64,000 nt of DNA from Arthrobacter agilis (GTDB taxonomy: Bacteria > Actinomycetota > Actinomycetes > Actinomycetales > Micrococcaceae): NCBI RefSeq assembly GCF_002157505.1, contig NZ_NFSC01000026.1:1-64000 (forward strand), in the 5' to 3' direction. The translations under genes were made by a program, and so were the position numbers. The notes under the pieces were generated by a model. It was not told the DNA's origin. It did not search any database and was given only the letters and a program-made list of their open reading frames with translations. Shown piece after piece: positions 6,481 to 24,716 of the stretch; within the stretch, counting starts at the first letter, position 1, and each line of letters opens with the position of its first letter.

Positions 6481-6481
6481 C

Positions 6482-7657
6482 GTGAAGCGCTTGCTGTCTA
6501 CCCCACGCCCGGACTGGAAAGAGAAGATCGCCAGCCAGGGCCTGCTCTACTCGACGACGATCATGCCCGACGGCTCGGAGATCGACTACTGGCACGAGGG
6601 CGCCTACTACCAGTTCGACCTCGCAGAGGTCGAGATGCTCGAGAAGGTCACCGAGGAGCTGCACGGCATGTGCATCGAAGCGGCCCGACACCTCGCCACC
6701 GGCGCCATGGGCAACATCGGCATCAGCGCCGAAGCCATGAAGCTTGCCGCCGGATCGCTGGCCCGCAGTGAGCCCGCCGTCTACGGCCGCTTCGACTTCT
6801 CCTACGACGGCGTGAACCCGCCGAAGATGCTCGAGTACAACGCCGACACTCCGACGGGCCTCATCGAGGCGTCCATCGCCCAGTGGTTCTGGCTGCAGGA
6901 CGTCAAGCCCGAGAACGACCAGTGGAACGGCATCCACGAAGCCCTCGTCGCCGCATGGGACAAGCAGCGCTTTGGGATCGAGGGCCCGAGGCTGCATGTT
7001 GCGCACATCGAGACCGAAGAGTCAGGCGAGGACTGGATGACGGCCGCCTACATGCGCGACGTCGCCTCACAGGCCGGTTGGGAGACCGTCGGCATCAACA
7101 TGAGCGACATCGGTTGGGACTACCGCCAGCACCGCTTCGTGGACCTCGACAACAAAGCCATCAGCACCATCTTCAAGCTCTACCCGTGGGAGATGATGAT
7201 GAAGGAGGAGTTCGGACAGAAGATCCTCGACTGGCCCGTGATGACCCGCTGGGTCGAGCCGGCCTGGAAGATGTTCCTTTCCAACAAGGCCCTCCTGGCC
7301 GCCCTCTGGCACCTCTACCCGGACCATCCCAACCTGCTACCGTCCTACCTCGACGGACCGAACGGCATGGACGAGTGGGTCGCGAAGCCCCTGCGTGGCC
7401 GCGAGGGCGACAACATCCGCATCCACGCCAAGGGCGTCGAGATCGAGCAGCCCGGCGACTACGGAGCCGAAGGCTGGTGCTACCAAGCGTGGAGCCCGCT
7501 GCCCGACTTCGACGGCAACCGGCCGGTCCTCGGCGCCTGGGTGGTCGACGGCGAGTCCGTCGGCGTCGGCATCCGGGAATCCGACGGCTACGTCACCGAC
7601 TACTTCTGCCGTTTCGTACCCAACATCATCGACGCGCCCGCGCCGAGCAACGGTTAG
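6482..7657 (+). CDS. glutathionylspermidine-synthase-like ATP-grasp protein (YgiC/YjfC type)
   Basis: A GTG at 6482, one base after the DUF1190 stop, gives 391 residues, the usual size of YgiC/YjfC. The whole protein matches the synthetase (ATP-grasp) half of glutathionylspermidine synthase, including FDFSYDG, MLEYNADTPTGLIEAS and a C-terminal WVAKPLRGREGDNI nucleotide-binding segment. The amidase half of the E. coli bifunctional enzyme is absent. Actinobacteria normally lack glutathione, so the true substrates are probably another amine and another carboxylate. It likely forms an amide bond with ATP. Spacing puts it in an operon with the lipoprotein and the permease at 7664. Confidence 0.88.
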   Translation: MKRLLSTPRPDWKEKIASQGLLYSTTIMPDGSEIDYWHEGAYYQFDLAEVEMLEKVTEELHGMCIEAARHLATGAMGNIGISAEAMKLAAGSLARSEPAVYGRFDFSYDGVNPPKMLEYNADTPTGLIEASIAQWFWLQDVKPENDQWNGIHEALVAAWDKQRFGIEGPRLHVAHIETEESGEDWMTAAYMRDVASQAGWETVGINMSDIGWDYRQHRFVDLDNKAISTIFKLYPWEMMMKEEFGQKILDWPVMTRWVEPAWKMFLSNKALLAALWHLYPDHPNLLPSYLDGPNGMDEWVAKPLRGREGDNIRIHAKGVEIEQPGDYGAEGWCYQAWSPLPDFDGNRPVLGAWVVDGESVGVGIRESDGYVTDYFCRFVPNIIDAPAPSNG

Positions 7658-7663
7658 GCGACC

Positions 7664-9145
7664 ATGACCATCTCACCCACCGGATCCACGGTGCAGGGCA
7701 AGGGACTGTCCGCCGGGGACCTCGGCCTCGTCGGCAGTGTCTCCGTCGGCCTGTCCTCCACAGCGCCTGTCTACTCGCTGGCCGCGACGCTCGGCTTCAT
7801 CGTCCTGGCCGTCGGCGTACAGGCCCCTGCAGCGCTCATTGTCGCCTTCGTGCCGATGCTGCTCATCGCCTACGCCTACCGCGAGCTCAACAGGGACACC
7901 CCTGACTGCGGGACGACATTCACCTGGGCATCACGCGCGTTCGGGAAGTTCGCCGGCTGGATGGGCGGCTGGGCCCTGGCCCTTTCCGGCATCGTGGTGC
8001 TGGCCAACCTGGCGCAGGTCGCCGGGCAGTACCTCTGGCGCCTAGTCGATCCTGAGCTGGGCGACAACGTGCCGCTCGTAACCACTACTGGCGTCGCCTT
8101 CATCGCCGCCATGACGTGGACGAACTACCGCGGCGTGGACATCTCCGAGAAGATGCAGCGCACCCTGATCGCCCTCCAGTACGCCGCTCTGGCGCTCTTC
8201 ACCGGGTTCGCTGTGTACCGCATCTCCGCAGGGCAGGCCTTCGACTTCACCCCACTGAGCCTCGCCTGGTTCAACCCGTTCGCCGTCGAGTCCCTGTCCG
8301 CCTTCACCTACGCCATCCTGCTGGCCCTGTTCATCTACTGGGGCTGGGACACCTGCCTGGCGCTGAACGAGGAGACATCCAACCCGCGGAAGACACCCGG
8401 GCGGGCTGCGCTCATCTCATCGGTCATTCTGCTCGCCACCTACGTCGGTGTCAGCGTCGTCGTCATGATGTTCGCCGGCACCGGAAGTGAGGGTCTCGGG
8501 CTCGGCAACGAGGACAACGCCGCTGACGTGTTCTACTCGGTCAGCGAGGCCGTCATGGGCGACTGGGCGTGGGTCGCCGTGCTCGCCGTGCTGATCTCCG
8601 CGGCCTCATCCACGCAGACGACGATCCTCCCGACGGCGCGCGGAACCCTGTCCATGGCAGCCCACCGGGCATTGCCGGAGCGATTCGCGACCATCCACGC
8701 GAAGTACCTGACGCCCACGTTCTCCACCGTGCTGATGGGAGTGGTGGCTTCGGCCTACTACGTGGTCATGACACTGGTCAGCGAGGACTTTCTGGCCGAC
8801 TCGATCGCGTCCCTGGGCCTGTTCATCGCCTTCTACTACGGGCTGACCGGCTTCGCCTGCACCTGGTACTTCCGCCGCACCCTGCGCTCGAGCACCCGCA
8901 ACCTGATGTTCCGAGGCGTGCTGCCACTGCTCGGAGCGCTGATGATGACGGCCGCGTTCATCCTCTCTGCTCTCGACATGCTCGATCCCGAGTACGGGAG
9001 CACCGTATTTCTCGGTGTCGGCGGCACATTCATCATCGCTGTCGGGGCGATGCTACTCGGCGTCGCGCTCATGGTCCTCTGGTACGCCACGGCCCAACGC
9101 CGACTGGCGGCAGACGAAGCCATCGCCGAGTACACCGCCGACTAA
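7664..9145 (+). CDS. APC-superfamily amino acid/polyamine permease
   Basis: The 493-residue protein has about twelve membrane segments. The first helix region (GLVGSVSVGLSSTAPVYSLAA) has the unwound Gly-rich stretch that binds substrate amino groups in the APC superfamily. NEETSNPRKTPGRA in the middle loop is also typical. It starts 6 bp after the synthetase-like gene, so it is almost certainly cotranscribed. That suggests it moves the amine or amino acid which the ATP-grasp enzyme conjugates. Direction and substrate cannot be read from the sequence. Confidence 0.88.
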   Translation: MTISPTGSTVQGKGLSAGDLGLVGSVSVGLSSTAPVYSLAATLGFIVLAVGVQAPAALIVAFVPMLLIAYAYRELNRDTPDCGTTFTWASRAFGKFAGWMGGWALALSGIVVLANLAQVAGQYLWRLVDPELGDNVPLVTTTGVAFIAAMTWTNYRGVDISEKMQRTLIALQYAALALFTGFAVYRISAGQAFDFTPLSLAWFNPFAVESLSAFTYAILLALFIYWGWDTCLALNEETSNPRKTPGRAALISSVILLATYVGVSVVVMMFAGTGSEGLGLGNEDNAADVFYSVSEAVMGDWAWVAVLAVLISAASSTQTTILPTARGTLSMAAHRALPERFATIHAKYLTPTFSTVLMGVVASAYYVVMTLVSEDFLADSIASLGLFIAFYYGLTGFACTWYFRRTLRSSTRNLMFRGVLPLLGALMMTAAFILSALDMLDPEYGSTVFLGVGGTFIIAVGAMLLGVALMVLWYATAQRRLAADEAIAEYTAD

Positions 9146-9300
9146 TCAACTGGCCGCTTCGCTCCTCGCCTCGGAGCCTCGGACCAGTGCGCCCCGAGAT
9201 CCCCCAGTGCTGTTCGGGGAGCTTCCCGTCCAGTGCGACGTTCTGCGGCAGGGCCCCGAGGTCGATGGCGCGACGAAGACGCGGCTGCTGCCGATGGTCC

Positions 9301-9501
9301 ATGGCCGGCTTCGATCCCGCCGTGACGTCCTACTCGGTGCCGTCGCGGGGCGAGCTCCCGACCGTGTCCGCCGTTCCGGCCGACCCGTACGCGACGGTGT
9401 CCGTGACACAGCCCTCGGGCGGCGACCGGACCGCCGTCGTCACGGTGACGAGCGAGGACGGTTCGGCCACGAGCACCTACCGGGTGGACATCACCCAGTA
9501 G
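9301..9501 (+). pseudogene. C-terminal remnant of a secreted enzyme with cadherin-like beta-sandwich domain
   Basis: An open frame of 66 residues (GFDPAVTSYSVP, then TVTSEDGSATSTYRV near the end) matches the cadherin-like beta-sandwich repeat often found at the C-terminus of large actinobacterial glycoside hydrolases. Upstream the same frame becomes Arg/Cys-rich nonsense, and no signal peptide or catalytic domain exists. It is best read as the last domain of a deleted gene. The stretch 9146-9300 holds nothing else recognisable. Confidence 0.55.
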
Positions 9502-9516
9502 GGTGTCCGACACAGC

Positions 9517-9552
9517 ACGACGGGGCGTCCGCAGCAGCGGGCGCCCCGTCGT
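9517..9552 (+). terminator. terminator hairpin after the remnant
   Basis: ACGACGGGGCG (9517-9527) pairs perfectly with CGCCCCGTCGT (9542-9552) across a 14-nt loop. It lies 15 bp after the stop of the remnant at 9301-9501. This suggests the terminator of the lost parent gene has survived. Confidence 0.7.
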
Positions 9553-9721
9553 CGTCTGCGGAGGTCTATGTCCCCCATAGCGGTGCGGGTGTATATTGTG
9601 GCCCTGCTCGTCCTCCTCGCGGTCGCTCGGGCAGCAACGGTCTCCCGTCGGTGCACTCGTCCTGGTGCACATCCTCGGCAACTGGTCCTTCGTGGATCCT
9701 CCTTTTGACAATGAGGTCGTC

Positions 9722-10144: not shown

Positions 10145-10159
10145 AAGGACGCCGCCCCG

Positions 10160-10897
10160 TTACCTGACGAGGTACCCGCCATCGACGGTCACCGTAGTAC
10201 CCGTCACATAGGCGGCTTCATCGGAGGCGAGGAAGCAGGCAATCCTTGCGACATCCTCCGCCTCGCCGAGTCGTCCGAGCGGGATCCGGTCACGGATCGC
10301 CGCGGCTCCGGCCTCCGAGTCGGCGGTGCGCTTCAGCATCGGAGTGTCGATAAGTCCGGGAGCCAGCGCATTGACGCGCACGCCGAACGGGGCCCACTCG
10401 CCCGCCATCGAACGTGCGAGTGAAGTAATAGCGGCCTTCGTCGCGCAATAGGCGGCGCTTGGTTCAGTCCAATCCGAGCGGTATGCCCCGACCGAGGAGA
10501 ACAGCACGATATTGACGCCGATGCAGGCCCGCTTCGCCGAGATCACAGCCTCCCGCGCACAGAACATACTTCCGGAGACGTTGACGGCAAAGGTTCGGTG
10601 CCACGCCGCACCCGTCATTTCGAGCAGCGGCACGCACGGATAGATCCCGGCCGCGCACACGAGCACGGTGGGCGCGCCGCCGAGCTGCATCTCAGCCTCT
10701 GCCACGGCCTGAACTACAGCCGCCTCATCCGCGACGTCGACCGCGGTGATGCCCTCGCCGGGCTGCGTGTCGAAGCCCACCACTTCCGCACCTTCCGCAC
10801 GCAACTGGGCCATGCAAGCGGCACCGATCCCCGACGCCGCTCCTGTGACAATTGCGCGGGATCCAGCGTGTCTCGACGATGTGGAAGCTCCCTTCAC
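10160..10897 (-). CDS. SDR-family dehydrogenase (second of a pair)
   Basis: The 245-residue protein starts at a GTG. The NAD(P)-binding motif TGAASGIG lies at 18-25, and the catalytic Ser134/135, Tyr150 and Lys154 (YCATK) are in place. PGLIDTPM and the C-terminal TVDGG are typical of classical SDRs. FDTQPGEG after strand 2 carries an Asp, which favours NAD(H). The start overlaps the stop of the next SDR gene by 4 bp, so it is the last gene of the operon running from 15236 down. It probably oxidises a hydroxyl made or exposed by the upstream enzymes; the substrate is unknown. Confidence 0.9.
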   Translation of the reverse strand: MKGASTSSRHAGSRAIVTGAASGIGAACMAQLRAEGAEVVGFDTQPGEGITAVDVADEAAVVQAVAEAEMQLGGAPTVLVCAAGIYPCVPLLEMTGAAWHRTFAVNVSGSMFCAREAVISAKRACIGVNIVLFSSVGAYRSDWTEPSAAYCATKAAITSLARSMAGEWAPFGVRVNALAPGLIDTPMLKRTADSEAGAAAIRDRIPLGRLGEAEDVARIACFLASDEAAYVTGTTVTVDGGYLVR

Positions 10898-11667
10898 AGG
10901 GGTCGCCCTCCGGTGAGTTCGAGCACCTGCGCCGTAATGTATCTGCTGTCACTACCAGCGAAGAAGGCGACCGCCCCTGCCACATCGGCACCCGTCCCAT
11001 AGCGTCCCAGCGGGACAGAAGCGACGTCGTCGGCGTAGAGATCCTCGGCCGTTGTTCCGGCCAGCCTGGCGCGGTTCCTGAGTGCGTCCCAGCGCATGGG
11101 TGTGTCGATGTACCCGGGCGCTATCGCATTGACGGTGATGCCGAACGGCGCAAGCTCCAGGGCCACTGTCTTTGTCATCGCCACGAGGCCGGCTTTGGAA
11201 GCGCTGTAGGCGGCGCTGCCTTCGACCGGGACCCGGGCGTACACCGAACTCACCGTCACGATGCTGCCGCTCCCCTTCACTTTCATGACCTCTGCAGCCG
11301 CCCGCACGCTGAGAAACGCCCCGCGAAGGTTGACGTTGATCACGGTATCGAAGGCCTCGGTCGACAGCTCGGTGAGATGATCCGCACCACCGCCGATGCC
11401 GGCGTTGACGACAAGCAGATCGAGCGCACCGAAGCGGTCGACGACGGACGCCACCAGTGCCTTCACCTCGTCCTCGTCGGTCACATCACAGCGTGCTCCC
11501 GCGACCCTCGGGTTTCCGGTCTCCTGCGAAAGCGCCGCGGCCGCGCTCTCCACGTCATCCGAGCGGTCACTCAGCATCACCGCCCACCCGTCCTCCGCCA
11601 GGCGCTGCGCAATGGCATAGCCGATGCCGCGGGCAGCACCCGTGATGAGCGCTGTCCCACCGGTCAT
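10894..11667 (-). CDS. SDR-family dehydrogenase (first of a pair)
   Basis: The ATG at 11667 overlaps the stop of the deacetylase gene by 4 bp and gives 257 residues. A longer in-frame reading would run deep into the upstream gene and is rejected. TGAARGIG is at 9-16 and the catalytic residues are Ser140, Tyr154 and Lys158 (YSASK). MLSDRSDDV after the second strand suggests NAD preference. It is related to, but clearly different from, the downstream SDR, so the two probably act in sequence or on stereoisomers rather than being recent duplicates. Tight coupling places it in the ABC transporter operon. Confidence 0.92.
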   Translation of the reverse strand: MTGGTALITGAARGIGYAIAQRLAEDGWAVMLSDRSDDVESAAAALSQETGNPRVAGARCDVTDEDEVKALVASVVDRFGALDLLVVNAGIGGGADHLTELSTEAFDTVINVNLRGAFLSVRAAAEVMKVKGSGSIVTVSSVYARVPVEGSAAYSASKAGLVAMTKTVALELAPFGITVNAIAPGYIDTPMRWDALRNRARLAGTTAEDLYADDVASVPLGRYGTGADVAGAVAFFAGSDSRYITAQVLELTGGRPL

Positions 11668-12467
11668 GGAACGAGGCCCGCGATCTCGCTGCAGGTGCCG
11701 AAGTGGACACCCTGATCCTGCACGAACTGCAGATAGGTATCGAGCATCGCAATCCGCGAGGGGCGCCCGACGATCTGCGGATGCAGCGCCAATGAGGTGA
11801 GCCCGCCAAGGGCGTGGATGCCGCGAGTCTCTTCCCGCCAGATCTCGAGCACCTGTGAGGGAGCCGCAATAGTCTTGTCCCAGCTGCTGTTCGCGAACCA
11901 GAAATGCGGCGCATCGTCGAGGATCCACTGCACGGGAAGCTCGACGATTCCGTTGGGATGCCGATACGGGTATATGTCATCCATGAGCGAGGACGAGTAG
12001 CTGATGCCGTGGGCCACCATGATGTCCATGGTGGACGGGCTGAAGTCGAAGGCGGGCGAACGATAGCCCGCGATGGGTGTCCCGAAAGCCGACAGCACCT
12101 CGAAGGCACGCCGGAAGTCAGCCTCCTCCTCCCCGGGGCCGAAACGACCAGGATGGGTATGGGTGTAACCGTGGTGGGCCAGCTCGTGGCCGCCGTCGAC
12201 TATGCGTGATACCTGGTCCGGGTAGCGTTCCGCGACCCGCCCGGGCACGAAGAACGTCGCTGTGAGATCCCTTCGCTCAAGGAGATCCAGTACGAGGTAG
12301 ATGCCCCTTTTCGCGCCGTATGTTCCCTGCGAGAGCACGCCCGGACGGTCAGCGTTCGCGGGGTCGGAGCCGATCCAAACCTCTTCGGCATCGAAGTCGA
12401 AGCTGAGCGCGAATCCGCTCCTGGCCCCACCCGGCCAACTCCAGTCCATGCCGGCCCCGGCCCCCAC
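11664..12467 (-). CDS. CE4-family polysaccharide deacetylase / cyclic amidase-like enzyme
   Basis: A GTG at 12467 overlaps the transporter ATPase stop by one base; an ATG at 12449 is an alternative six codons in. From that ATG, metal ligands are seen at Asp18/Asp20 (SFDFDAEE) and His92/His96 (HHGYTHTHP). The domain covers nearly the whole protein. The long form resembles the HpPgdA and allantoinase-like (PuuE) branch, some members of which open cyclic amides or imides rather than deacetylate sugars. There is no signal peptide, so it is cytoplasmic. That speaks against a cell-wall role and for action on an imported small amide. Confidence 0.85.
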   Translation of the reverse strand: MGAGAGMDWSWPGGARSGFALSFDFDAEEVWIGSDPANADRPGVLSQGTYGAKRGIYLVLDLLERRDLTATFFVPGRVAERYPDQVSRIVDGGHELAHHGYTHTHPGRFGPGEEEADFRRAFEVLSAFGTPIAGYRSPAFDFSPSTMDIMVAHGISYSSSLMDDIYPYRHPNGIVELPVQWILDDAPHFWFANSSWDKTIAAPSQVLEIWREETRGIHALGGLTSLALHPQIVGRPSRIAMLDTYLQFVQDQGVHFGTCSEIAGLVP

Positions 12468-13210
12468 TACAGCCTGCCCGCCGCGATGATGCTGCGGAGG
12501 AACTCCTGCGTGCGGGGGTGCTCCGGTGCCGTGAAGATCTGCTCCGGGGTTCCGATCTCGCAGATCGTGCCCTGGTGCAGGAAGCACACACGGTTGGAGA
12601 CCTCCCGCGCGAAGTTCATCTCGTGCGTCGCGAGAAGCATCGTCATTCCATCGCGGGCGAGCTCACGCACGAGCGACAGCACTTCGGAGACCAGTTCCGG
12701 ATCGAGCGCCGAAGTGATCTCGTCGAGCAGGAGCATGCGTGGCTCCATCGCGAGGGACCGCACGATCGCCGCCCGCTGCTGCTGCCCACCCGACAGTTGA
12801 TCAGGATGCGCGTTGGCCTTGTCAGCCAATCCGATACGGTCCAGCAGACCGAGAGCGCGCTCGTTCGCCTGTTCGCGGCTCAGCCCCAGCAGCATCTCCG
12901 GAGCGACGGCGATGTTGCGCAGGACCGTCATGTTCGGGAAAAGATTGAAGTTCTGGAACACGATGCCGATGTGCTCGCGAAGCTTGTTCACGTCGACGCC
13001 CGGGCCGGAGATACCATCGCCGTCGAGCCGGATCTCGCCCTCATCGATCGTCTCCAGCGCGTTGATGCAGCGCAGCAGGGTCGACTTTCCTGATCCTGAT
13101 GCTCCGATGAGGCACAGGACCTCGTGCTGGTTGACCGAAAGATCGATGCCGCGCAGCACGGCGTTCGGGCCATAGCTCTTATACAGATTCTCGATTTCGA
13201 GGAATGCCAT
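12467..13210 (-). CDS. ABC transporter ATPase, polar amino acid type
   Basis: The 247-residue protein has Walker A GASGSGKST (36-44), signature LSGGQQQR, Walker B LLLDEITSAL and the switch His in ATHEM. Sequence and length match the GlnQ/HisP group of the polar amino acid and opine importers. It follows the permease gene by 2 bp and runs directly into the deacetylase gene. It powers the uptake system encoded at 13213-15236. Confidence 0.95.
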   Translation of the reverse strand: MAFLEIENLYKSYGPNAVLRGIDLSVNQHEVLCLIGASGSGKSTLLRCINALETIDEGEIRLDGDGISGPGVDVNKLREHIGIVFQNFNLFPNMTVLRNIAVAPEMLLGLSREQANERALGLLDRIGLADKANAHPDQLSGGQQQRAAIVRSLAMEPRMLLLDEITSALDPELVSEVLSLVRELARDGMTMLLATHEMNFAREVSNRVCFLHQGTICEIGTPEQIFTAPEHPRTQEFLRSIIAAGRL

Positions 13211-13212
13211 GA

Positions 13213-14307
13213 TCAGGCCCCGCTTCGCTTGCGCTCTTGTCGGTCCAGGTAGCGGTCGAGTAGCCGCGCCTGCGTGATCGTGATGATGAGGAAGAACGCT
13301 GCGACGATGGTCACGGACGACAGATTGAAGTGGTTGCCGGCGTAGATTTGCGACTGGTTGAATGCGTCCACGGCACCGATGATGCCCACGAGCGCGGTGT
13401 CCTTCTGCAGCGAGATGAAGTTGTTCATGAGCGGCGGGATCACTCGGCGGATGCCTTGCGGCACCACCACGACACGCATCGTCTGCAGGTAGCTGAAACC
13501 CAGTGACCGGGCAGCATAGACCTGGCTCGGATGAATGCTTTCGAGACCCGAGCGGTAGACCTCAGCGGTGTAGGCACCGTAGGTGAGGGTGAGCGCGATG
13601 ATCGCGTACCACGTGGCGCTCAGATCGCTGAGGCCCGGGATCTGGGTGAACGACAGACCGAATCCGACAAGGTAGATCACGATGATCGCGGGCAGGCCCC
13701 GGAAGATGTCGATGTAGAGCGTGGCGAGGGATCGAAGCGGCTTCATCGCTGCCGTCTTCGAGATGCGCAGAAGGGCGATCACCATCGCCCAGATGAGTAC
13801 GAGCACCTGGGCCACGAGAGCGATGAAGACGTTCTGCCCGAATGCCGCGAGGATGTCCGGAAAGCTCAGGATCATGAGGTCGGGCTGCAGGAAGGTCTTC
13901 TGCACCGAGGCGTCGTTGACGATCAGGAAGTAGATCACCCCCATCACCACGAGGACTGCGGCGGCCACACCCATGCTCACGGCGGCCCGCTGGCGGGACT
14001 TCGCGGACTTCGTCCGTTGTTCGACCCGATCGGCCGGGTTCTTCACGCGGGACGCCTGGATCGCACCGATGAGCGGGATGATCACCAGGATCAGGCCGGC
14101 CGCGATGACCACCGTGAGTCCCAGTTGAAAACCGAGGATGACGGGGGAACCCGGAGCCCAGATAGCGGAGATCAGGGCTCCGCCCGTCACTGCGCAGAGC
14201 ACAGCGACGAGCAGGGCGGAACTGATCAGATGTCTGGTAGGTGCGATCCGCAAGCGGATCGGCTCGCGGGTGAGGACGCCGCCCGCTCCGTCGAGTTCAG
14301 AAGTCAT
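13213..14307 (-). CDS. ABC transporter permease, polar amino acid type, with extended N-terminus
   Basis: The 364-residue protein has a HisM-type permease domain in its C-terminal 220 residues, with the EAA-type loop (YRSGLESIHPSQVYAARSLG). The first 140 residues add about three membrane segments and a Lys/Arg-rich cytoplasmic stretch not present in minimal GlnP-type permeases. Similar extensions occur in other actinobacterial systems. No second permease gene is present, so the protein probably works as a homodimer. Confidence 0.92.
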   Translation of the reverse strand: MTSELDGAGGVLTREPIRLRIAPTRHLISSALLVAVLCAVTGGALISAIWAPGSPVILGFQLGLTVVIAAGLILVIIPLIGAIQASRVKNPADRVEQRTKSAKSRQRAAVSMGVAAAVLVVMGVIYFLIVNDASVQKTFLQPDLMILSFPDILAAFGQNVFIALVAQVLVLIWAMVIALLRISKTAAMKPLRSLATLYIDIFRGLPAIIVIYLVGFGLSFTQIPGLSDLSATWYAIIALTLTYGAYTAEVYRSGLESIHPSQVYAARSLGFSYLQTMRVVVVPQGIRRVIPPLMNNFISLQKDTALVGIIGAVDAFNQSQIYAGNHFNLSSVTIVAAFFLIITITQARLLDRYLDRQERKRSGA

Positions 14308-14320
14308 TCACGGACTTCCG

Positions 14321-14378
14321 GGTAGGCACGTCGGTCGGATCACTGAGGAACGTCCAGGTAGGGCACGTCGGTCGGATC
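14321..14378. repeat. short tandem duplication at the 3' end of the binding-protein gene
   Basis: The segments 14321-14341 and 14357-14378 are identical except for one extra G. The second copy codes for the end of the binding protein (SDPTDVP); the first lies mostly just past the stop. It looks like a slippage duplication of the gene's tail. Confidence 0.7.
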
Positions 14379-15236
14379 GCTGCCGAACACCGGAGCAAGG
14401 TAGGTCGCCGCGAGATCCTTCAGCGTCCCGTCGTCGATCAGATCGGTGATGATCTTGTCGATCGCCTCCTTGTTCGGTGCGCCCTCAGGGTACACACCGC
14501 CGTAGCTCTCGCCCGTGCTGAACTGGCCGACGACCTCGAGAAGGCCGTTGGAAGCGCTGGCGACAGTGAGTGCCTGAGCGGTGTCGTTGAGGACGACGTC
14601 GACCTGGCCCGAGGCGAGAGCCGTGGTCATGCTGCCAGTGTCGGGGAAGACCTTGAGGGAACCTTCGTCGATGCCGAGCTTGTCGATCGCAAAGCTCTGG
14701 CCCACGGTGCTGAGCTGAACACCGACGGTCGATTCCTTGATCGACTCGCTCGTTACTTCGTTGCCCTCCTTGGTGAGCACTCCGACGTCCCCGGAGAAGT
14801 ACGGCGGCGTGAATTCGACGGCTTGCTCACGCTCCGGCGTGATGGAGATCGTGACCAGGGCGAGGTCGAAATCCTTGGTCTGCCCGGCCACGATCGAGGC
14901 GAAGGAGACGGTCTTCACATCGAGCTTAGAAAGGCCACCGCGGTAGGCGATGTTCGCTGCCATGCAGTACTCGTAGCCGTCCTTGATATTGGCGGGCTTG
15001 TCGCCATTCCACCAGCCGGGCGAGGGCAGGCTGTTCTCGACGGTGAAGGTGTCAGCGGTGGTCGGCTCGGTGATGGGATCAGATCCGAATTCGCCCGTCA
15101 CTTCGCAGTTGCCATAGGTAGGTTCTGCCTCTACGTCGTCCTCGACGGTGTCGGTGCTGGGGGTTGAGCTGCAACCCGCAGCCGTCAGGATGGTGGCAAG
15201 GCCAACGGCGGTGGTGGCCATGATTTTCCGGATCAC
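14340..15236 (-). CDS. ABC transporter substrate-binding lipoprotein, polar amino acid type
   Basis: The 298-residue protein begins at a GTG and has a lipoprotein signal ending LTAAGC. The rest is an SBP_bac_3 domain, with the typical FTPPYFSGDVGVL, ALASGQVDVVLND and YGGVYPEGAPNKEAIDK segments. This fold binds amino acids, opines and related small polar ligands. It is the first gene of a six-gene minus-strand operon (binding protein, permease, ATPase, deacetylase-like enzyme, two SDRs). The specificity is unknown; the enzymes suggest an amide or N-acyl compound. Confidence 0.92.
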   Translation of the reverse strand: MIRKIMATTAVGLATILTAAGCSSTPSTDTVEDDVEAEPTYGNCEVTGEFGSDPITEPTTADTFTVENSLPSPGWWNGDKPANIKDGYEYCMAANIAYRGGLSKLDVKTVSFASIVAGQTKDFDLALVTISITPEREQAVEFTPPYFSGDVGVLTKEGNEVTSESIKESTVGVQLSTVGQSFAIDKLGIDEGSLKVFPDTGSMTTALASGQVDVVLNDTAQALTVASASNGLLEVVGQFSTGESYGGVYPEGAPNKEAIDKIITDLIDDGTLKDLAATYLAPVFGSDPTDVPYLDVPQ

Positions 15237-15534
15237 TCGGGCACTCCTTCAAGCTCATTCTGCATTCGTCCTGGACTCTGGGCCTTCGAGAAACAGGCCG
15301 TTCAGAACTGGGAAACACTCCACCGACACATGACGCGCGGCCCAGAAAATGCGTAGGCATCGTTGCCCGGCAGGAGAAGTAGCAGAAGCCTATACAGATG
15401 CTTGCCTGAGCACAACAACTCATTTTCGACAATCCGGGCCGGCACGACCGGCCTGTGTGTTTCTCGGCAACTATCGGTTAACGTTGCACGCGTCCACGCC
15501 GATCTCCCAGCGAATCCACTGAAGGACTACCTGC
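15237..15534. promoter_or_regulatory. divergent control region between transporter operon and amidohydrolase
   Basis: This 298-bp gap separates two divergent transcription units and must hold both promoters. An inverted repeat GGCCGG-N5-CCGGCC lies at 15437-15453 and is a candidate operator. AAGGA at about 15522-15526 serves as the ribosome-binding site of the amidohydrolase. No regulator gene lies in the cluster. Confidence 0.45.
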
Positions 15535-17142
15535 ATGGCAGCAACGCTCTATTGCCGCGGCCGCATCCACGCTCTGGACCGAGCAGCCGTTCCCGCCGAC
15601 ACGCTGCTGGCGGAAGACGGCGTCATCGTCGCGATCGGCGATGACCGAGCGGTGAGGAGATCCCTCACCGGTCCTGCCGAAGAGTTCGACCTCGAGGGCC
15701 GCTCGGTGATCCCCGGCCTCATCGATGCCCACATCCACTCAGCCACTTTCGCGAGGGACAGGACCACCGTCGACCTCCGCGGCGTAACTGATCTTGAGGA
15801 AGCCGTCGAGCGCGTTCGTCGGCATGCCGAGACTCTCGCACCGGGCCAGTGGCTCTTCGGTGGACGGTGGGACTTCAACACCTGGACGGTCCCGTTGCAG
15901 CCCGATCGCCACAGCCTGGACAGCGTGTGCCCGGACCGCCCCGTCGCGCTCCCCAGTATCGACGGTCATACGATCTGGGCCAACAGCCTCGCTCTCCGGG
16001 CCATCGGTGTCACGGCGGCGACGCCCGATCCGATCGGTGGCGAGATCGTCCGTGACGAGCGGGGCGATCCCACCGGGATCCTCCGCGAGTCTGCCCGCCA
16101 GCCTCTGCGCGATCTCATGAACTCCGAGCTCTCCGGAGATCTGGTATCCCAGCTTCGCGCGGCCCAGGAGCACTTCCTGTCGCTCGGGCTCACCGGCCTC
16201 CACGACATGGATGCGGAGGACAGCCGCGCCGCCTACCTGAGCTTGCACGAGGCGGGTGAGCTGAAGCTCCGCGTGCACAAGTCGATTCCCATGAACTATC
16301 TCGACGGTGCGATCGCCGAGGGCCGGTACACCGGGCAGGGCGATGACTGGTTCACCACGGGCGCGCTGAAGCTGTTCAGCGATGGTGCCCTCGGCTCACA
16401 TACCGCGCTCATGAGCGAGCCATTCCCCGGTGAACCACACAATCACGGCATCGAGGTGATTCCCTACCGCAATCTCGTGGAACTCATGGGCAAGGCAGCC
16501 CGCACCGGCATCGCCGTGGCAACGCACGCGATCGGCGACCGCGCCAACCATCTCGTGCTGAACGCCTACGAAGAGCTGCTGCCGATCACCCGCGAGCGCG
16601 GTCTACGCCACCGCATCGAGCACGCACAGCACCTGTTGCCGTCCGATGTGGTCCGCTTCGCGGAGCTCGGCGTGATCCCCTCGATGCAACCTACGCACTG
16701 CACTTCAGATATCCCCCTTTCGGGAGCGATGCTGCATGGTCGTTCACTGGCCAACTATGCGTGGCGCTCACTCCTTGACACCGGAGCCGCCCTCGCCTTC
16801 GGCTCGGACGCCCCTGTCGAAAGCCCGAATCCTGTCTACGGTCTGCACGCAGCTCTCACCCGGCAGAACGAACACGGTGAGCCGCCCGCGGGGTGGGAAC
16901 CGGAGCAGCGACTCAGCTTGGTCGAAGCGCTCGAGGGTTTCACCTCCGGGCCCGCCTTCGCCGCAGGGCAGGAGGCGAAACTCGGACGGTTACGGCCCGG
17001 AATGCTTGCGGACTTCGCCGTGCTGAACGAGGACCCCTTCTCGATTGCCCCGGACGAATTGCGCCATCTCGAGGTGCAGACGACCGTCGTCGGCGGCGAG
17101 GTACGGTTCCAACGCACCGGCGCGACTTCACGCCTTGAATAG
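15535..17142 (+). CDS. YtcJ-type amidohydrolase (amidohydrolase family 3)
   Basis: The 535-residue protein has metal ligands His-x-His in DAHIHS near residue 65, later histidines in THAIGDRAN and RIEHAQHL, and the catalytic Asp in FGSDAPVE. The N- and C-terminal strands that form the outer beta-sandwich are present (VIPGLIDAH; RPGMLADFAVLNEDP). The group includes N-substituted formamide deformylases and exoenzyme-regulation-like proteins that hydrolyse N-acyl or amide bonds. It is transcribed away from the transporter operon and probably shares its regulation. No signal peptide is seen, so it is cytoplasmic. Confidence 0.9.
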   Translation: MAATLYCRGRIHALDRAAVPADTLLAEDGVIVAIGDDRAVRRSLTGPAEEFDLEGRSVIPGLIDAHIHSATFARDRTTVDLRGVTDLEEAVERVRRHAETLAPGQWLFGGRWDFNTWTVPLQPDRHSLDSVCPDRPVALPSIDGHTIWANSLALRAIGVTAATPDPIGGEIVRDERGDPTGILRESARQPLRDLMNSELSGDLVSQLRAAQEHFLSLGLTGLHDMDAEDSRAAYLSLHEAGELKLRVHKSIPMNYLDGAIAEGRYTGQGDDWFTTGALKLFSDGALGSHTALMSEPFPGEPHNHGIEVIPYRNLVELMGKAARTGIAVATHAIGDRANHLVLNAYEELLPITRERGLRHRIEHAQHLLPSDVVRFAELGVIPSMQPTHCTSDIPLSGAMLHGRSLANYAWRSLLDTGAALAFGSDAPVESPNPVYGLHAALTRQNEHGEPPAGWEPEQRLSLVEALEGFTSGPAFAAGQEAKLGRLRPGMLADFAVLNEDPFSIAPDELRHLEVQTTVVGGEVRFQRTGATSRLE

Positions 17143-17210
17143 GGTTGCCCGTGCGGCATCGGGCGTCGGATAGCGGGTGCCGCACGTGCCGCCTGCAGGC
17201 ACACAAGGCA

Positions 17211-17248
17211 GTGCCGGGACGTCATCCTGACGGATGAAGTCCCGGCAC
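17211..17248. terminator. bidirectional terminator between convergent genes
   Basis: GTGCCGGGAC (17211-17220) pairs with GTCCCGGCAC (17239-17248), and an inner TCATCC pairs with GGATGA. The structure lies between the amidohydrolase stop and the stop of the minus-strand secreted protein, so it can serve both. Confidence 0.75.
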
Positions 17249-17276
17249 GTGGCGCCCGGGTGCTGGCGGCGACCTG

Positions 17277-19523
17277 CTATCTCAGGGTCAGTACCAGCGT
17301 GGGTGCGAGGGTAGCACCGGCTTCCTTGGAGCTGAGCAGCAGGCCGTCGCTGCTGCTGGAGTCGATACCCAGGGAGAGCTGCTGGCCGAGCTCACCGGCC
17401 ACGCCGGTGACCGTGAGCGGAACGCTGTAGCGGGTGTTGATCGCTGTCGGACCGAGCGTTCCGATACTGACACCGGGGGCCGGAGCGTTGCTGTAGGTGA
17501 TTCCGGTTTCCGTCCAGCTGTCATTGGCGACCAGCTTGACGTTCTGCTTGCCCGTCGACCCGTTCTCGGCGCTGGTCAGTTGCAGCGTGGCACTCTCGAT
17601 CGTCCTGCCCGCATAGGCCGACAGGTCGAACTTCAGGTACGTGGTCTCGATCGGGCTGCTGTCCACCCACAGCGTGGTGCTCGTGCCACGGTTCGTCCCC
17701 GGCGCCCCGCTCGACACATAGCTGTCAGCGGTAGCCGTCAGCGTGGCGGTCGTTGACGTGCCGCCCGCCGCCGCCGTCGTGAAGGTCCAGGTCCTGTCCG
17801 ACGCCAGCGCATTACCGGCAGCGTCCTTCACCCCCGTGGAACCGCCCCTGATCCTCGCCGTGTACGTCGTACTCGGCGCCAGACTTGAAGTCGGGTCCAA
17901 CGTCGCAACAGTGCCGCTGTAGGTCACGGCGGCTCCCACCGCCGTCGTCGACCCCTGCGGCGTCAGCGTGAACGTGGAGGTCGTAATCGTCGAGGCATTC
18001 ATTGGTTCTGAGAACGTTCCCGTCGCGTTCGCGGTCACCGCAACACCGGTCGCAACACTCGGCGAGACCGCCGTCACCGTCGGAGCCGTCGTATCACCAC
18101 CACCACTACCAGCTTCGTAGTGGTGCCAGTACCGGCTTGTGGCGCCCACATCGGCGAGCAACAGCAGACCGCTGTTAGGCGTGCGCGTGGAATTTAGGTT
18201 CTGCTTCGTCGACGTCACATTATGAACGTACTGGTCTGCGTCCACGATCCGAGGCGTCTTCCCGGTGGTGAAATTGATGTTGTCCAGAGGCGTGGATTTC
18301 TCGTAGATCGCGCCCCCCGAGGTGGAGCAGACGCCGGCGTTCGTCGTGCCGCTGGGTTTGGGATAGGTGGCGAAGGTCCGCAGCCTCTGCGCGGCCTCGT
18401 CGATGAGGACGATCACGCGGTTCGGGCACTCGCCCTGGGTGGCGATCGTGTGGGCCGTCCACTTCGCGGTCGCGGTCGCAGTATCCAGAGCCAGCAGCTG
18501 GATCAGCGGCTGGGACGCGGAGGTGAATGACGTCTTGACCGCGGCGAACACCCGGCCGCCGGAGGAATCCAGCCACTTCAGGTTCATGTGGTCATCACCG
18601 CTTTTCAGGCCCGACACCGCCGCCCCGGTCGTCCAGGAGCTATTAGGGTCTCCATCGACGTGGACGCTCCAGTAAAAGCCGTCGTCGGCATCTCCCTTCT
18701 GCCGGCTCCACATCACACCCATCTTGCGGGGTCCGAAGGCGATTACCGCCGACGTGTCGTCCAAGCTCACGTTGCCCGACCCCTCAGTGCTCGACGCCGC
18801 AGGATGCAGGAACGGCGTCCCCCACGTCACGCCGTCCGTGCCGGTGGCGTTCATATAGATCTTGTTGCCCTGCTGCCAAGTGGCCCATACCCGACCGGTC
18901 GAGTCCTTGTCGATGGTCAGGACCTCGACTTTTTGGTCGTTGATCTTTGTCGAATCCAGCAGCGCGTACGTGTCCGTGCTCGCGTTGTAGCTGTAGCGGC
19001 GCATTGTCGTCGGGAAGCCCGCCGCAGCCGACACGCCGTCATTCACGAACACGTAACTCGCAACGTTCAGCGTCGTCCCGTCCCAGAGGACGTCGTGGTG
19101 CGTGTTCGCCCGCGGGTCCGTGACCACACCCGTGTCGACCCACGAATTCGTGCCGGCATCGAACCGGAAGATATGGAAATCCGAACTGGCGGTGTCCCAC
19201 AGGTTCCCCCACCAGCGCCCGTCATTGAACCACAGCGCGTTGGTCGCCCGCTTCGTACCCGTCGGCGTGCCCGTTCCGGCATGCGACGGACCCTGTGTCC
19301 CGACGTCACCCGGATCGGCCGACGCCGCGACCGGCACCACCAGGGCCGCCAGCCCAAGCAGCAGCGCTGTCAACAGCGCCGTCAGAAGTGAAGGAAGCCG
19401 GAGGTTCCGCAACCCACCTCGACGAAGACCGGAGAAGCAGGCACCTCTCCGCCCTCCGCCAGGCTTCGGAGCCCTGCGGCCTCCACTACGCCTGCGCATG
19501 GAAAAAAATGGATGATCCAGCAT
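17277..19523 (-). CDS. large secreted protein with Ig-like and DNRLRE (CBM96-type) domains
   Basis: The 748-residue protein has a long Arg-rich N-region and a signal segment (about 43-68, cleavage near ASA-DP). An ATG nine codons in is an alternative start. Residues about 75-430 form a repetitive Trp/Asp-rich region that reads like a beta-propeller (NDGRWWGNLWD, GRVWATWQQGNKIYM, RVFAAVKTS). An Ig-like Big_5-type domain follows (about 432-535: TAPTVTAVSPSVATGV, FSEPMN). A DNRLRE/CBM96-type domain ends the protein (about 545-748: ADSYVSSGAPGTNRG, TYLKFDLSA, DGLLLSSKE). Such proteins usually act on or bind extracellular polysaccharide. No catalytic residues can be assigned. Confidence 0.75.
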   Translation of the reverse strand: MLDHPFFSMRRRSGGRRAPKPGGGRRGACFSGLRRGGLRNLRLPSLLTALLTALLLGLAALVVPVAASADPGDVGTQGPSHAGTGTPTGTKRATNALWFNDGRWWGNLWDTASSDFHIFRFDAGTNSWVDTGVVTDPRANTHHDVLWDGTTLNVASYVFVNDGVSAAAGFPTTMRRYSYNASTDTYALLDSTKINDQKVEVLTIDKDSTGRVWATWQQGNKIYMNATGTDGVTWGTPFLHPAASSTEGSGNVSLDDTSAVIAFGPRKMGVMWSRQKGDADDGFYWSVHVDGDPNSSWTTGAAVSGLKSGDDHMNLKWLDSSGGRVFAAVKTSFTSASQPLIQLLALDTATATAKWTAHTIATQGECPNRVIVLIDEAAQRLRTFATYPKPSGTTNAGVCSTSGGAIYEKSTPLDNINFTTGKTPRIVDADQYVHNVTSTKQNLNSTRTPNSGLLLLADVGATSRYWHHYEAGSGGGDTTAPTVTAVSPSVATGVAVTANATGTFSEPMNASTITTSTFTLTPQGSTTAVGAAVTYSGTVATLDPTSSLAPSTTYTARIRGGSTGVKDAAGNALASDRTWTFTTAAAGGTSTTATLTATADSYVSSGAPGTNRGTSTTLWVDSSPIETTYLKFDLSAYAGRTIESATLQLTSAENGSTGKQNVKLVANDSWTETGITYSNAPAPGVSIGTLGPTAINTRYSVPLTVTGVAGELGQQLSLGIDSSSSDGLLLSSKEAGATLAPTLVLTLR

Positions 19524-19670
19524 CGTTGCCCCCCGGGTTGATTGATCTTCGATCCTCCCCAGGTTTCTCCAGTGTCAAGCGTCGAAGCATCAGAAACAAC
19601 CCCCCCAGTGCGATCACCCCTCGACTACCGACGCCCCCACTACTTGCTGCTCGAGGCATACAGAACACGT

Positions 19671-19680
19671 AGTAATTACT
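19671..19680. promoter_or_regulatory. palindrome AGTAATTACT upstream of the BldC-like gene
   Basis: A perfect 10-bp palindrome lies 77 bp upstream of the BldC-like gene and 148 bp upstream of the divergent secreted-protein gene. BldC-type regulators bind AT-rich sites. It is a candidate operator, nothing more. Confidence 0.35.
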
Positions 19681-19757
19681 CGTGCGCCAACCACCGGGGC
19701 CGATCACTGTTAGCAGAGACGTAGGAGTGGCGAACGGGTCTCAAGGAGCAGGTAACA

Positions 19758-19952
19758 ATGGCGCATAACAACCCCATGACAGAGAACCTACTGACGGTTG
19801 CGGAGATAGCCGCCCAGATGCGGGTATCGAAGATGACGGTGTACCGCCTGGTGCAGTCCGGCGCGATGCACGGTATCCGGTTCGGCCGCTCCTACCGGGT
19901 GCCGGAAGCGGCCGTACAGCAGTACCTCGACTCCGTGAACTCAGGACACTGA
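19758..19952 (+). CDS. BldC/excisionase-like MerR-type HTH protein
   Basis: The ATG has a perfect AAGGAG 11 bp upstream and gives 64 residues. LTVAEIAAQMRVSKMTVYRLVQSG, followed by FGRSYRVPEAAVQQYL, is the helix-turn-helix 17 / excisionase fold with wing. Streptomyces BldC is the best-known relative and has the same size. It binds DNA and has no other domain. It stands alone, divergent from the large secreted-protein gene. Excisionase function is less likely because no integrase is nearby. Confidence 0.88.
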   Translation: MAHNNPMTENLLTVAEIAAQMRVSKMTVYRLVQSGAMHGIRFGRSYRVPEAAVQQYLDSVNSGH

Positions 19953-20525
19953 TACACCGCTCATCACCGACCTGGTCAGGCGCACGGCGGGCAACCACGC
20001 CGGCGGTGAACCTCTGGACGGTGTCCGGTGCGCGTCCAGGATCGACGAGCAGGATGCTCCATGCCGAGGTCGAACTGGTCGGTATATAAGTACGGGATGT
20101 CATTCAGCGCAAACGTCCTGCCCGAGCATCGATGCGGCTGACGCCTGCCGTCGCACAGCCACTCGGAGGTGGGCAGCCTGAACGGCGCCCTGCCCACCAG
20201 CGCCCTGCTCACCAGCGCCCTGCTCACCAGCGCCCTCGAAGGTAGCAGTGATGCGAGTCATCGAGTGACTGCGGATCCAGGCGGACCCTAGTGCTGCGTG
20301 CGTATCACGCGTCAGGGTGGACGTCCTGAAGCGCCGATCCCCTAGCGCCTCGCGACTACTGGCACGACGGCTTCATCGGTGGTCGGAAACCTGTCTCGGC
20401 GGCGCCTCTCGGCTGGAATAACCGCGCGGCTCGACCCTGATCGATCCCCTGAACCGGCATCTTCGTAGGCTACTTTGGAGTCCGTATAGTAGCGGCCTTG
20501 CCTCGGGCCCCGGAAGGAGCATCGA
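19953..20525. other. gene-free stretch with a 15-bp tandem repeat
   Basis: No supported CDS lies in these 573 bp. The notable feature is the tandem repeat at 20186-20236. AAGGAG at 20514-20519 is the ribosome-binding site of the phospholipase D-like gene. Confidence 0.5.
20186..20236. repeat. 15-bp tandem repeat, about 3.4 copies
   Basis: Unit CGCCCTGCTCACCAG begins at 20186 (with one C for T), 20201 and 20216, and a partial fourth copy ends at 20236. The unit length is a multiple of three but no gene covers it. Confidence 0.85.
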
Positions 20526-22139
20526 GTGGACGGTGACGTGGAGAGCTGGTTCCTGAGCCGTGAGGAGCGGGGGAACCTCGCGACCGAGGTGCACGCAGGC
20601 GGCGCCGAGTTGCCGTCCTGGTCCGAAGGCAACCTCGTGCGGCCCCTGATTCATGGCGCTACCTACTTCGCCCGACTGCATGAAGAGCTGACAGCCCTGC
20701 GCGCGGGAGACCGCGTGTGGTTCACCGACTGGCGCGGCGACGGTGACGAGCGGCTGACGGAGGACGGCCCGTCGATCGGCGAGTTGCTGGCGGATCTGGC
20801 ACGCAAGGGTGTGGAAGTGCGGGGCCTGATCTGGAGATCTCACGGAGAGCGCGTGTCGGCGCCGATCAGCGGCCGGTCCAACGAACTCCTGAGTCGCCAG
20901 GTCAACGACGCAGGCGGAGAGGTGCTGTTGGATCAGCGTGTACGCCTCTTCGGCTCCCACCACCAGAAGCTCTTCGTCATCCGCCGTCGTGACGACCCGT
21001 CGCGCGACGTCGCGTTCGTCGGCGGAATCGACCTTTCCCACAGCAGGCGGGACGATGCCGACCATGCAGGAGATCCGCAAGCAGTGACGATGGATCCCCG
21101 GTACGGGAAACGGCCACCGTGGCACGATGCCGCCCTCGAACTCCGCGGGCCCGTGGTTGAAGATGTGCTCGCATTGTTCGCTGAACGGTGGAACGACCCG
21201 CATCCCCTGGACCACCGCACCCCTTACCGGATGTTGCTGCATCGCCTGGCCCGCATGCCACGCCACCCCAAACCGCTTCCAGTCACTGCTCCGCCACCAC
21301 CACCGGCGGGCCCCCACGCCGTGCAGCTGCTGCGCACCTACGGCGTGAAGCATCCTCCGTTCCCCTTCGCGCCCGAGGGGGACCGGAGCATCGCCCGTGG
21401 CTATGCCAAAGCCTTCTCCCGGGCCCGGTCGCTGATCTACATCGAGGACCAGTACCTGTGGTCGGCAGAGGTCGCGGCCGGCATCGCCTCGGCCTTGGAA
21501 CGGAACCCCGATCTGAAGGTGATCGCCGTCGTGCCCCGGTACCCGGACTCCGACGGTTTCTTCGGGGGGCCGCCCAGGCGGATCGGGCAAGTACGGGCCA
21601 TGGGGATACTGCACCGGGCTGCTCCGGGCAGGGTCGGCGTGTTCGATCTGGAGAACAGCGCCGGAACACCGATCTACGTCCATGCAAAGATCTGCATCAT
21701 CGACGACGTCTGGTTCGCCTGCGGCTCGGACAACTTCAACCGTCGGTCCTGGACCTCGGACAGCGAACTCACCTGCGCCGTACTCGACACCACGAACGGC
21801 ACGTCGGAAACGACCCGCACGGACACGGGACAGGACTCCTACCGCCCGTTGGCCCGCGAGTTCCGGCTCCAGCTCTGGGCCGAACACCTGGGCCTGGATC
21901 AGGACGACCCCCGCCTCCAGGACCCGGCGGCCGGGCTCGATCTGTGGAACACCACCGCTGACGCTTTGGATCGATGGCATGATGCCGGCCGCCGCGCGCC
22001 CCGTCCTCCCGGGCAGGTACGGCGCCATACCCCGGCACCGGTACCGCCCCTCCAACGTCTCTGGGCGGATCCACTGAGCCGTTTTATCGTCGACCCGGAC
22101 GGCCGCCCCCGCCGGTCGCGCGGCACCAGCGAGTTCTAG
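20526..22139 (+). CDS. phospholipase D-like protein, two HKD motifs
   Basis: A GTG with AAGGAG upstream starts 537 residues. The second HKD motif is canonical (His386, Lys388, Asp393 in HAKICIID, then GSDNFNRRSW). The first is HQKLFVIR (His146, Lys148), with Arg153 where Asp is expected, followed by AFVGGIDLSHSRRDD. The same change is usual in this bacterial subgroup. HKD enzymes cleave or transfer phosphodiester bonds through a His nucleophile. There is no signal peptide, which points to a cytoplasmic or peripheral membrane enzyme, perhaps in phospholipid turnover. It is monocistronic. Confidence 0.88.
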   Translation: MDGDVESWFLSREERGNLATEVHAGGAELPSWSEGNLVRPLIHGATYFARLHEELTALRAGDRVWFTDWRGDGDERLTEDGPSIGELLADLARKGVEVRGLIWRSHGERVSAPISGRSNELLSRQVNDAGGEVLLDQRVRLFGSHHQKLFVIRRRDDPSRDVAFVGGIDLSHSRRDDADHAGDPQAVTMDPRYGKRPPWHDAALELRGPVVEDVLALFAERWNDPHPLDHRTPYRMLLHRLARMPRHPKPLPVTAPPPPPAGPHAVQLLRTYGVKHPPFPFAPEGDRSIARGYAKAFSRARSLIYIEDQYLWSAEVAAGIASALERNPDLKVIAVVPRYPDSDGFFGGPPRRIGQVRAMGILHRAAPGRVGVFDLENSAGTPIYVHAKICIIDDVWFACGSDNFNRRSWTSDSELTCAVLDTTNGTSETTRTDTGQDSYRPLAREFRLQLWAEHLGLDQDDPRLQDPAAGLDLWNTTADALDRWHDAGRRAPRPPGQVRRHTPAPVPPLQRLWADPLSRFIVDPDGRPRRSRGTSEF

Positions 22140-24649: not shown

Positions 24650-24716
24650 TACTCCCCTCGCACGCACCGGCTGCTCGCCGGCAACGCACCGACCACCAGG
24701 ATCGACAAGGATCGAC

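Follow-up and report, generated by a model that had tools for sequence, protein, structure and literature searches.

In a stretch of 64,000 nucleotides from Arthrobacter agilis (contig NZ_NFSC01000026.1 of assembly GCF_002157505.1, positions 1 to 64,000; hereafter the window), we analysed a locus at positions 10160-17142, which encodes an ATP-binding cassette (ABC) importer, a CE4-fold hydrolase, two short-chain dehydrogenases (SDR1 and SDR2) and an amidohydrolase. The conserved unit is the three-gene cassette CE4-SDR1-SDR2, which is smaller than the seven-gene set and stands next to several types of importers. We read the locus, with a confidence just short of even, as a putative uptake-and-degradation operon around this cytoplasmic cassette, which would open a small cyclic amide or imide for catabolism. 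An original prediction, made from the sequence alone, had placed here the breakdown of a small compound of the amide or cyclic-amide type, and this is still the best reading. All seven reading frames are open at the following positions, belong to the families predicted and score above the respective Pfam cut-offs.

10160-10897, minus strand: SDR2, short-chain dehydrogenase (GTG start, 245 aa; adh_short_C2, 1.5e-50)
10894-11667, minus strand: SDR1, short-chain dehydrogenase (257 aa; adh_short_C2, 3.7e-63, on the frame from 11673)
11664-12449 (ATG start) or 11664-12467 (GTG start), minus strand: CE4-fold hydrolase (261 or 267 aa; Polysacc_deac_1, 1.2e-15)
12467-13210, minus strand: ABC ATPase of the polar-amino-acid class (247 aa; ABC_tran, 1.7e-34)
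13213-14307, minus strand: ABC permease of the HEQRo type (364 aa, extended at the N-terminus; BPD_transp_1, 3.7e-21)
14340-15236, minus strand: family-3 solute-binding protein (SBP), presumably a lipoprotein in view of its lipobox (GTG start, 298 aa; SBP_bac_3, 1.3e-15)
15237-15534, no strand: divergent intergenic region between the SBP and amidohydrolase genes (298 bp, from the coordinates)
15535-17142, plus strand: Amidohydro_3 metallohydrolase, which we take to be YtcJ-like (535 aa; Amidohydro_3, 1.7e-103)

The seven genes had been regarded as one pathway, but the gene-neighbourhood search singles out CE4-SDR1-SDR2 as the unit, with the importers exchanged. A scan of named genomes yielded 74 loci encoding a CE4 relative (best-segment identity 48-66%), and the six-frame open reading frames around them were searched with profiles. 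These loci also served to build the SDR, C45, Hyu and LLM profiles, so that genes common in them are detected preferentially, and no thinning of related loci was applied. In 19 loci one flank is shorter than 4 kb, and the other 55 were therefore also counted separately as a well-flanked subset. Two SDR genes lay on the same strand within 3.3 kb of CE4 in 25 of the 74 loci, one in 6 and none in 43 (21, 2 and 32 of the 55 well-flanked loci, respectively); on either strand and within 6 kb, two SDRs were found in 31/74 and 27/55. In the well-flanked loci, 49 SDR matches fell within 3.3 kb of CE4 (363 kb searched) versus 6 beyond 6 kb (318 kb searched). A C45/AAT gene accompanied CE4 on the same strand within 3.3 kb in 45/74 loci, including 22 of the 25 loci with an SDR pair, and in 39/55 well-flanked loci, 20 of which also carry the pair. 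Less frequent were HyuA or HyuB within 8 kb (18/74 and 16/55), LLM within 5 kb (12/74 and 10/55) and Amidohydro_3 within 10 kb (3/74 and 2/55). In the fullest operons, L050 and L104, genes for a binding protein, two ATPases and two branched-chain-type permeases precede CE4, SDR, SDR and C45, which are followed by LLM, HyuA, HyuB and Amidohydro_3 (families tested on L104). Alongside stands a divergent regulator gene coding for a LuxR-type HTH and a periplasmic-binding domain.

Such a LuxR-type HTH joined to Peripla_BP_6 (e.g. L104:2270-4045) was present in 36 of the 99 loci examined, including 32 of the 74 named ones (a few loci of the additional genomes in the 99 duplicate named ones). The protein is apparently a soluble binding-protein sensor, for which AmiC-like amide sensing provides a parallel. 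A Rieske oxygenase gene with an adjoining reductase gene was seen near CE4 and C45 in three loci, from an Arthrobacter metagenome-assembled genome (L065), Brevibacterium (L083) and Leucobacter (L101), with Pfam assignment for L083 only.

Within the actinobacterial loci, the two SDRs are distinct proteins. In a quick tree of 98 sequences, the actinobacterial SDR1s and SDR2s formed two separate clades: 34 first SDRs grouped together (support 96, starred) with SDR1 of the window as their sister (91, not starred), while SDR2 of the window fell inside a clade of 32 rows (99, starred), the other 31 being actinobacterial-type partners. Even in rearranged Leucobacter loci, in which the SDR genes are located on the other strand beyond HyuAB, the proteins remained in the SDR1 and SDR2 clades. 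Among these partners, an Asp following beta-2, which in SDRs favours NAD, is present in 34/34 SDR1s and 26/31 SDR2s, and the catalytic Tyr and Lys are present in the same proportions. Those five SDR2s in which Tyr and Lys are missing from the aligned positions are encoded by the moved genes of Leucobacter (L088, L090, L093, L098, L103) and form a long-branch clade; judged from the sequences, this SDR2 copy probably has no dehydrogenase activity in those strains.

The cassette also extends to plasmids of other phyla. A CE4 match was obtained in 210 plasmid records, of which 16 regions, picked for variety, were opened; SDR1 used as a tblastn query on plasmids at 1e-50 gave no match. Ten of the 16 regions have two SDRs within 6 kb of CE4 (Sulfitobacter, Roseomonas, Variovorax, two Paracoccus, Leisingera, Terrarubrum, Thioclava, Klebsiella and Rubrobacter). 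The second hydrolase was an AS amidase in 9/16 regions and C45 in 1/16. An ABC importer set of the spermidine/putrescine type is common to six regions (SBP_bac_8 and an ATPase with TOBE_2, tested on Paracoccus only), while the Sulfitobacter importer is of the dipeptide type (SBP_bac_5, oligo_HPY). In addition, a family-5 binding protein adjoins the cassette in Roseomonas, and the annotation gives an amino acid permease in Rubrobacter and an MFS gene in Klebsiella. Five of the six regions without an SDR pair carry argH-like, MmgE/PrpD, agmatinase or DUF1989-type genes or one SDR gene together with amidase or C45; the remaining one, from Thermomicrobium, had no recognised partner genes. In Paracoccus denitrificans, strain ATCC 19367 displays the order importer-CE4-SDR-SDR-amidase, and a plasmid of strain PD1222 has an identical SDR gene beside CE4. 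On the Klebsiella pneumoniae plasmid, typed as conjugative (L134), the order is amidase-CE4-MFS-SDR-SDR, accompanied by a gene for a GTP-binding protein.

Sequence and structure model support assignment of the window CE4 protein to the cytoplasmic HpPgdA/PuuE branch and not to the typical cell-wall deacetylases, as originally predicted. The N-terminus MDWSWPGGARSGFALSFDFD, read by eye, displays no signal peptide. The predicted structure (pLDDT 95.2) matched 3rxz with Z 37.8, HpPgdA (3qbu) with 35.8, 1z7a with 32.1 and both 3s6o and PuuE (3cl6) with 31.8, whereas the other CE4 chains among the matches listed reached 22.0 or less; by sequence as well as predicted fold, 3rxz, HpPgdA and PuuE are closer than the polysaccharide-active CE4 enzymes. 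Alignments inspected by eye pair the HpPgdA metal residues D12, D14, H86, H90 and H247, as reported in PMC3084791, with D18, D20, H93, H97 and H223 of the window protein, which are invariant in 72 aligned sequences. As far as the available text of that paper goes, HpPgdA binds metal, unlike PuuE, has no signal peptide, and was inactive on typical polysaccharide substrates, a small molecule being more likely bound; its naming as peptidoglycan deacetylase goes back to genetic grounds and is not matched by such activity in vitro (PMC3084791). An assignment as PuuE-type allantoinase is not supported, as the protein scores 58.1 bits with NCBIfam TIGR03212, under the cut-off of 424.6, and keeps all HpPgdA metal ligands, unlike the PuuE site, which is reported to be metal-free.

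The Pfam name Polysacc_deac_1 would suggest a cell-wall or chitin deacetylase operon, and annotated records do name CE4 proteins of this branch polysaccharide deacetylases. However, HpPgdA, one of the closest relatives, showed no peptidoglycan deacetylase activity in vitro according to the same source (PMC3084791), and peptidoglycan or chitin deacetylation is disfavoured by the fold branch, the absence of a visible signal peptide and an operon shared with importer and SDR genes. We regard this explanation as almost negligible.

The coordinates and Pfam matches confirm the predicted layout of six contiguous minus-strand genes diverging from the family-3 amidohydrolase gene, in the order SBP, permease, ATPase, CE4, SDR1, SDR2, end to end. 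SBP and permease genes are 32 bp apart, permease and ATPase genes 2 bp, and both the CE4/SDR1 and the SDR1/SDR2 junctions overlap by 4 bp. The overlaps of 1-4 bp that had been described for the last four genes hold for ATPase-CE4-SDR1-SDR2 with the qualification that the one between ATPase and CE4 hinges on an uncertain start codon: with GTG 12467 as the CE4 start, 1 bp is shared, and with ATG 12449 the genes are separated by 17 bp. A scan for sigma-70-type promoters gave no match at the locus, including the 298-bp divergent region, and terminator-like sites there showed no excess over shuffled sequence. Window positions 10150-21294 are collinear, at 90.6% DNA identity, with a congeneric genome (G116), the upper limit being where the piece compared ended; on the other side this main match ends 10 bp past SDR2, and one more short match lies at 9299-9560. 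Between the two genomes, dN/dS ranges from 0.04 to 0.17 across the seven genes, reflecting purifying selection. Because G116 keeps the block and dN/dS is low, the gene grouping is more than chance. Among 197 genomes drawn from the family, CE4 matches at 1e-20 occurred in 60 (eight with at least 50% identity, the window genome included), amidohydrolase matches at 1e-120 in 25, SBP matches at 1e-40 in 4 and SDR1 matches at 1e-50 in 2, i.e. the window genome and G116. According to these counts, the exact seven-gene layout was seen in two genomes.

SBP_bac_3 protein, HEQRo permease (TIGR01726, 60.5 bits, cut-off 42.2) and ATPase make up an importer set of the polar amino acid type. EhuA was the best NCBIfam match of the ATPase, below cut-off, and an Ehu ectoine importer was rejected since all components remain under their cut-offs (EhuA 296.3/345.4, EhuB 27.6/190.9, EhuC 92.3/196.95, EhuD 101.3/205.2 bits). 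Alignment to glutamine-binding proteins revealed that the SBP keeps the Arg of TPER and the Asp of VDVVLND, as in amino-acid binders; in family-3 proteins these residues presumably hold the alpha-carboxylate and the alpha-amino group, and therefore the ligand may be amino-acid-like. The importer could thus serve a plain amino acid, the enzymes being merely physically linked to it, and importer homologues are indeed found without CE4. The original prediction had named loci that keep the transporter and lack the enzymes as a finding against it, and such loci exist at moderate distance: in the three SBP homologue loci fetched from outside G116 (38-48% identity), the stretch retrieved contains neither a CE4 gene nor an SDR pair, although one of them ends at a contig edge and in another a lone SDR gene lies some 4 kb off. 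Against mere linkage speak the overlapping or nearly touching genes, the purifying selection relative to G116 and the cassettes elsewhere that likewise stand directly behind importer genes, which together render this explanation improbable.

Membership of the amidohydrolase in the pathway is uncertain. The protein is a clear Amidohydro_3 member (PF07969, 348.1 bits, cut-off 29.7), but CE4 was present in 0/7 fetched loci of its orthologues, and in four of these (L154, L155, L156, L157) the neighbours include a LysR gene and a family-3 importer of another type, so the amidohydrolase may belong to a separate importer-linked unit. The related amidohydrolases of L050 (68%) and L070 (63%) resemble that of L104, and all three are just 32-33% like the one of the window. 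As importer and amidohydrolase each recur without the cassette, the whole seven-gene set is rejected as one conserved pathway. Beyond SDR2, a glutathionylspermidine-synthase-like gene (PF03738) at 6323-7657 is directly followed by an APC permease gene at 7664-9145, relatives of which (43-52%) occur near the SBP homologue loci L152 and L153 and near the mycobacterial CE4 loci L060 and L075.

For the cassette we propose the following course. SBP, permease and ATPase would import a small polar compound, probably one bearing a carboxylate. The NAD-linked SDRs would oxidise hydroxyl groups, one of them most likely converting a hydroxy-lactam (cyclic hemiaminal) to a cyclic imide. The metal-bound CE4-fold enzyme may then open the ring of the imide, or of a related cyclic amide, to yield a half-amide, a proposal made because of its branch, its metal site and the precedent of fungal HxnM. 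Finally, a second amide hydrolase, interchangeable between hosts (C45, amidase, HyuAB or Amidohydro_3), would release an amine or ammonia and a diacid. Candidates for this last hydrolysis in the window genome are the divergent Amidohydro_3 protein and the AS amidases encoded elsewhere, one of them at 30033-31250 in what by eye is an allophanate-hydrolase-like gene.

The latter gene lies in a stretch, 23153-31760, that also contains a permease-like gene, two short DUF1989-like genes and a 1253-aa carboxylase-like gene and by eye resembles a urea or guanidine carboxylase operon. An Rfam scan of window positions 5000-36000 at gathering scores returned no match, riboswitches included.

Alternatively, CE4 might open a cyclic ureide of the hydantoin or allantoin type, with the SDRs acting on a side chain. 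PuuE, an allantoinase, belongs to the same fold branch, HyuA or HyuB accompany CE4 in the 18 loci counted above, and DUF1989, agmatinase-like and NCS1-type permease genes occur near some CE4 relatives. However, the window protein keeps its metal ligands, unlike PuuE as reported, HyuB is absent from the window genome, and we know of no ureide route that needs two SDRs; we consider a ureide unlikely, if worth keeping in view. CE4 chemistry is generally de-N-acylation or de-O-acylation, which would also suit an enzyme that deformylates or deacylates a small linear N-acyl compound, the SDRs processing the freed hydroxy compound. Adjoining second amide hydrolases are in line with this, but the nearest studied relatives, as far as described, act on small cyclic substrates or are structurally tied to them, and a linear substrate appears rather unlikely.

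Several observations weigh against the imide-opening pathway. The window genome was searched for C45 and HyuB and gave no match to either. As stated above, 43/74 CE4 loci lack a same-strand SDR within 3.3 kb, and 14/55 well-flanked loci have neither SDR pair nor C45; CE4 can therefore exist apart from the cassette. Some CE4 relatives adjoin NCS1-type permease, agmatinase-like, DUF1989 or MmgE/PrpD genes, and their substrates therefore probably differ. The proteobacterial SDR pairs fall elsewhere in the tree, so that no one-to-one SDR orthology is claimed across phyla, and the window CE4 protein and both window SDRs form long branches in the quick trees. Loss of Tyr and Lys in the five Leucobacter SDR2s argues against two obligatory SDR steps there. 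Finally, the SBP resembles an amino-acid binder, which the enzyme model leaves unexplained.

A more specific version of the imide route, in which N-(4-hydroxyacyl)amines are oxidised to the imide and then opened, we consider highly improbable. One SDR would oxidise the terminal hydroxyl to an aldehyde closing on the amide nitrogen, the second SDR would convert the resulting hydroxy-lactam to the cyclic imide, and after ring opening by CE4 the second hydrolase would free diacid and amine. Pantothenate, whose breakdown leads to dimethylmalate and beta-alanine, would fit this route and is the boldest candidate substrate; if true, genes for pantothenate breakdown would be supplied. Of the 99 loci searched, three (L100, L118, L135) have an aminotransferase gene and an MMSDH-type gene at a distance of up to about 8 kb from CE4, and two (L118, L129) have leuB-like genes nearby. 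However, the leuB-like proteins of L118 and L129 each pass the ordinary 3-isopropylmalate dehydrogenase cut-off, which weakens the pantothenate idea. As of 2023, pantothenase was described as an enzyme of unknown identity (PMC10393543, in the text available).

The neighbourhoods place many CE4 proteins of the HpPgdA/PuuE branch in small-molecule catabolic operons of Actinobacteria, Alpha-, Beta- and Gammaproteobacteria. Should the imidase role hold true, a large group of proteins would be renamed, relatives of HpPgdA would gain a testable function, and a route from SDR over imidase to amidase, so far fungal, would be a common bacterial one.

Among known systems, HpPgdA (HP0310, 3qbu) and 3rxz of M. 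smegmatis are the closest solved structures. The metal residues of HpPgdA are kept in the window protein, but no small-molecule substrate is established for either, and the long arm is an HpPgdA feature. PuuE (3cl6; 1z7a is a probable allantoinase) shares the CE4 branch and acts on a small cyclic substrate, but is reported to be metal-free (PMC3084791) and is 23-24% identical to the window protein in structural alignment. Caprolactamase-like HyuAB, an ATP-dependent lactamase/hydantoinase scoring below the caprolactamase cut-offs, is encoded in the same operons in other bacteria, which differ from the window genome in that the latter is without HyuB. A search of the open-access literature retrieved no paper describing the bacterial CE4-SDR-SDR cassette. 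The original claim that no described pathway has this gene set thus stands for bacteria within that literature, whereas a related logic is known from the end part of the fungal hxn nicotinate pathway, in which an SDR, an HpPgdA-like imidase and an amide hydrolase act consecutively (PMC9304392, as far as its available text goes). In Aspergillus nidulans, the SDR HxnW converts 5,6-dihydroxypiperidin-2-one to 3-hydroxypiperidine-2,6-dione, HxnM, which is related to a cyclic imide hydrolase homologue of P. putida and structurally to HpPgdA, opens the imide, and HxnN deamidates the product (PMC9304392). It is this published description, together with the common relationship to HpPgdA, by which the window CE4 protein is likened to HxnM. 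Besides being fungal, the hxn system differs, in the portion of PMC9304392 available, by one SDR instead of two in these steps and by the lack of an ABC importer; its upstream pyridine enzymes are not seen at the window locus, and HxnN is a FAAH-like amidase and not a C45 or Amidohydro_3 protein. Of the Hxn-type set, the window possesses the SDR pair and CE4, while an AS amidase adjoins CE4 on plasmids but not in the window operon. Taken together, SDR, CE4 and amidase (or C45) of the bacterial loci match the hxn logic, from which we infer a putative succession of import, oxidation to an imide, ring opening and hydrolysis of the half-amide.

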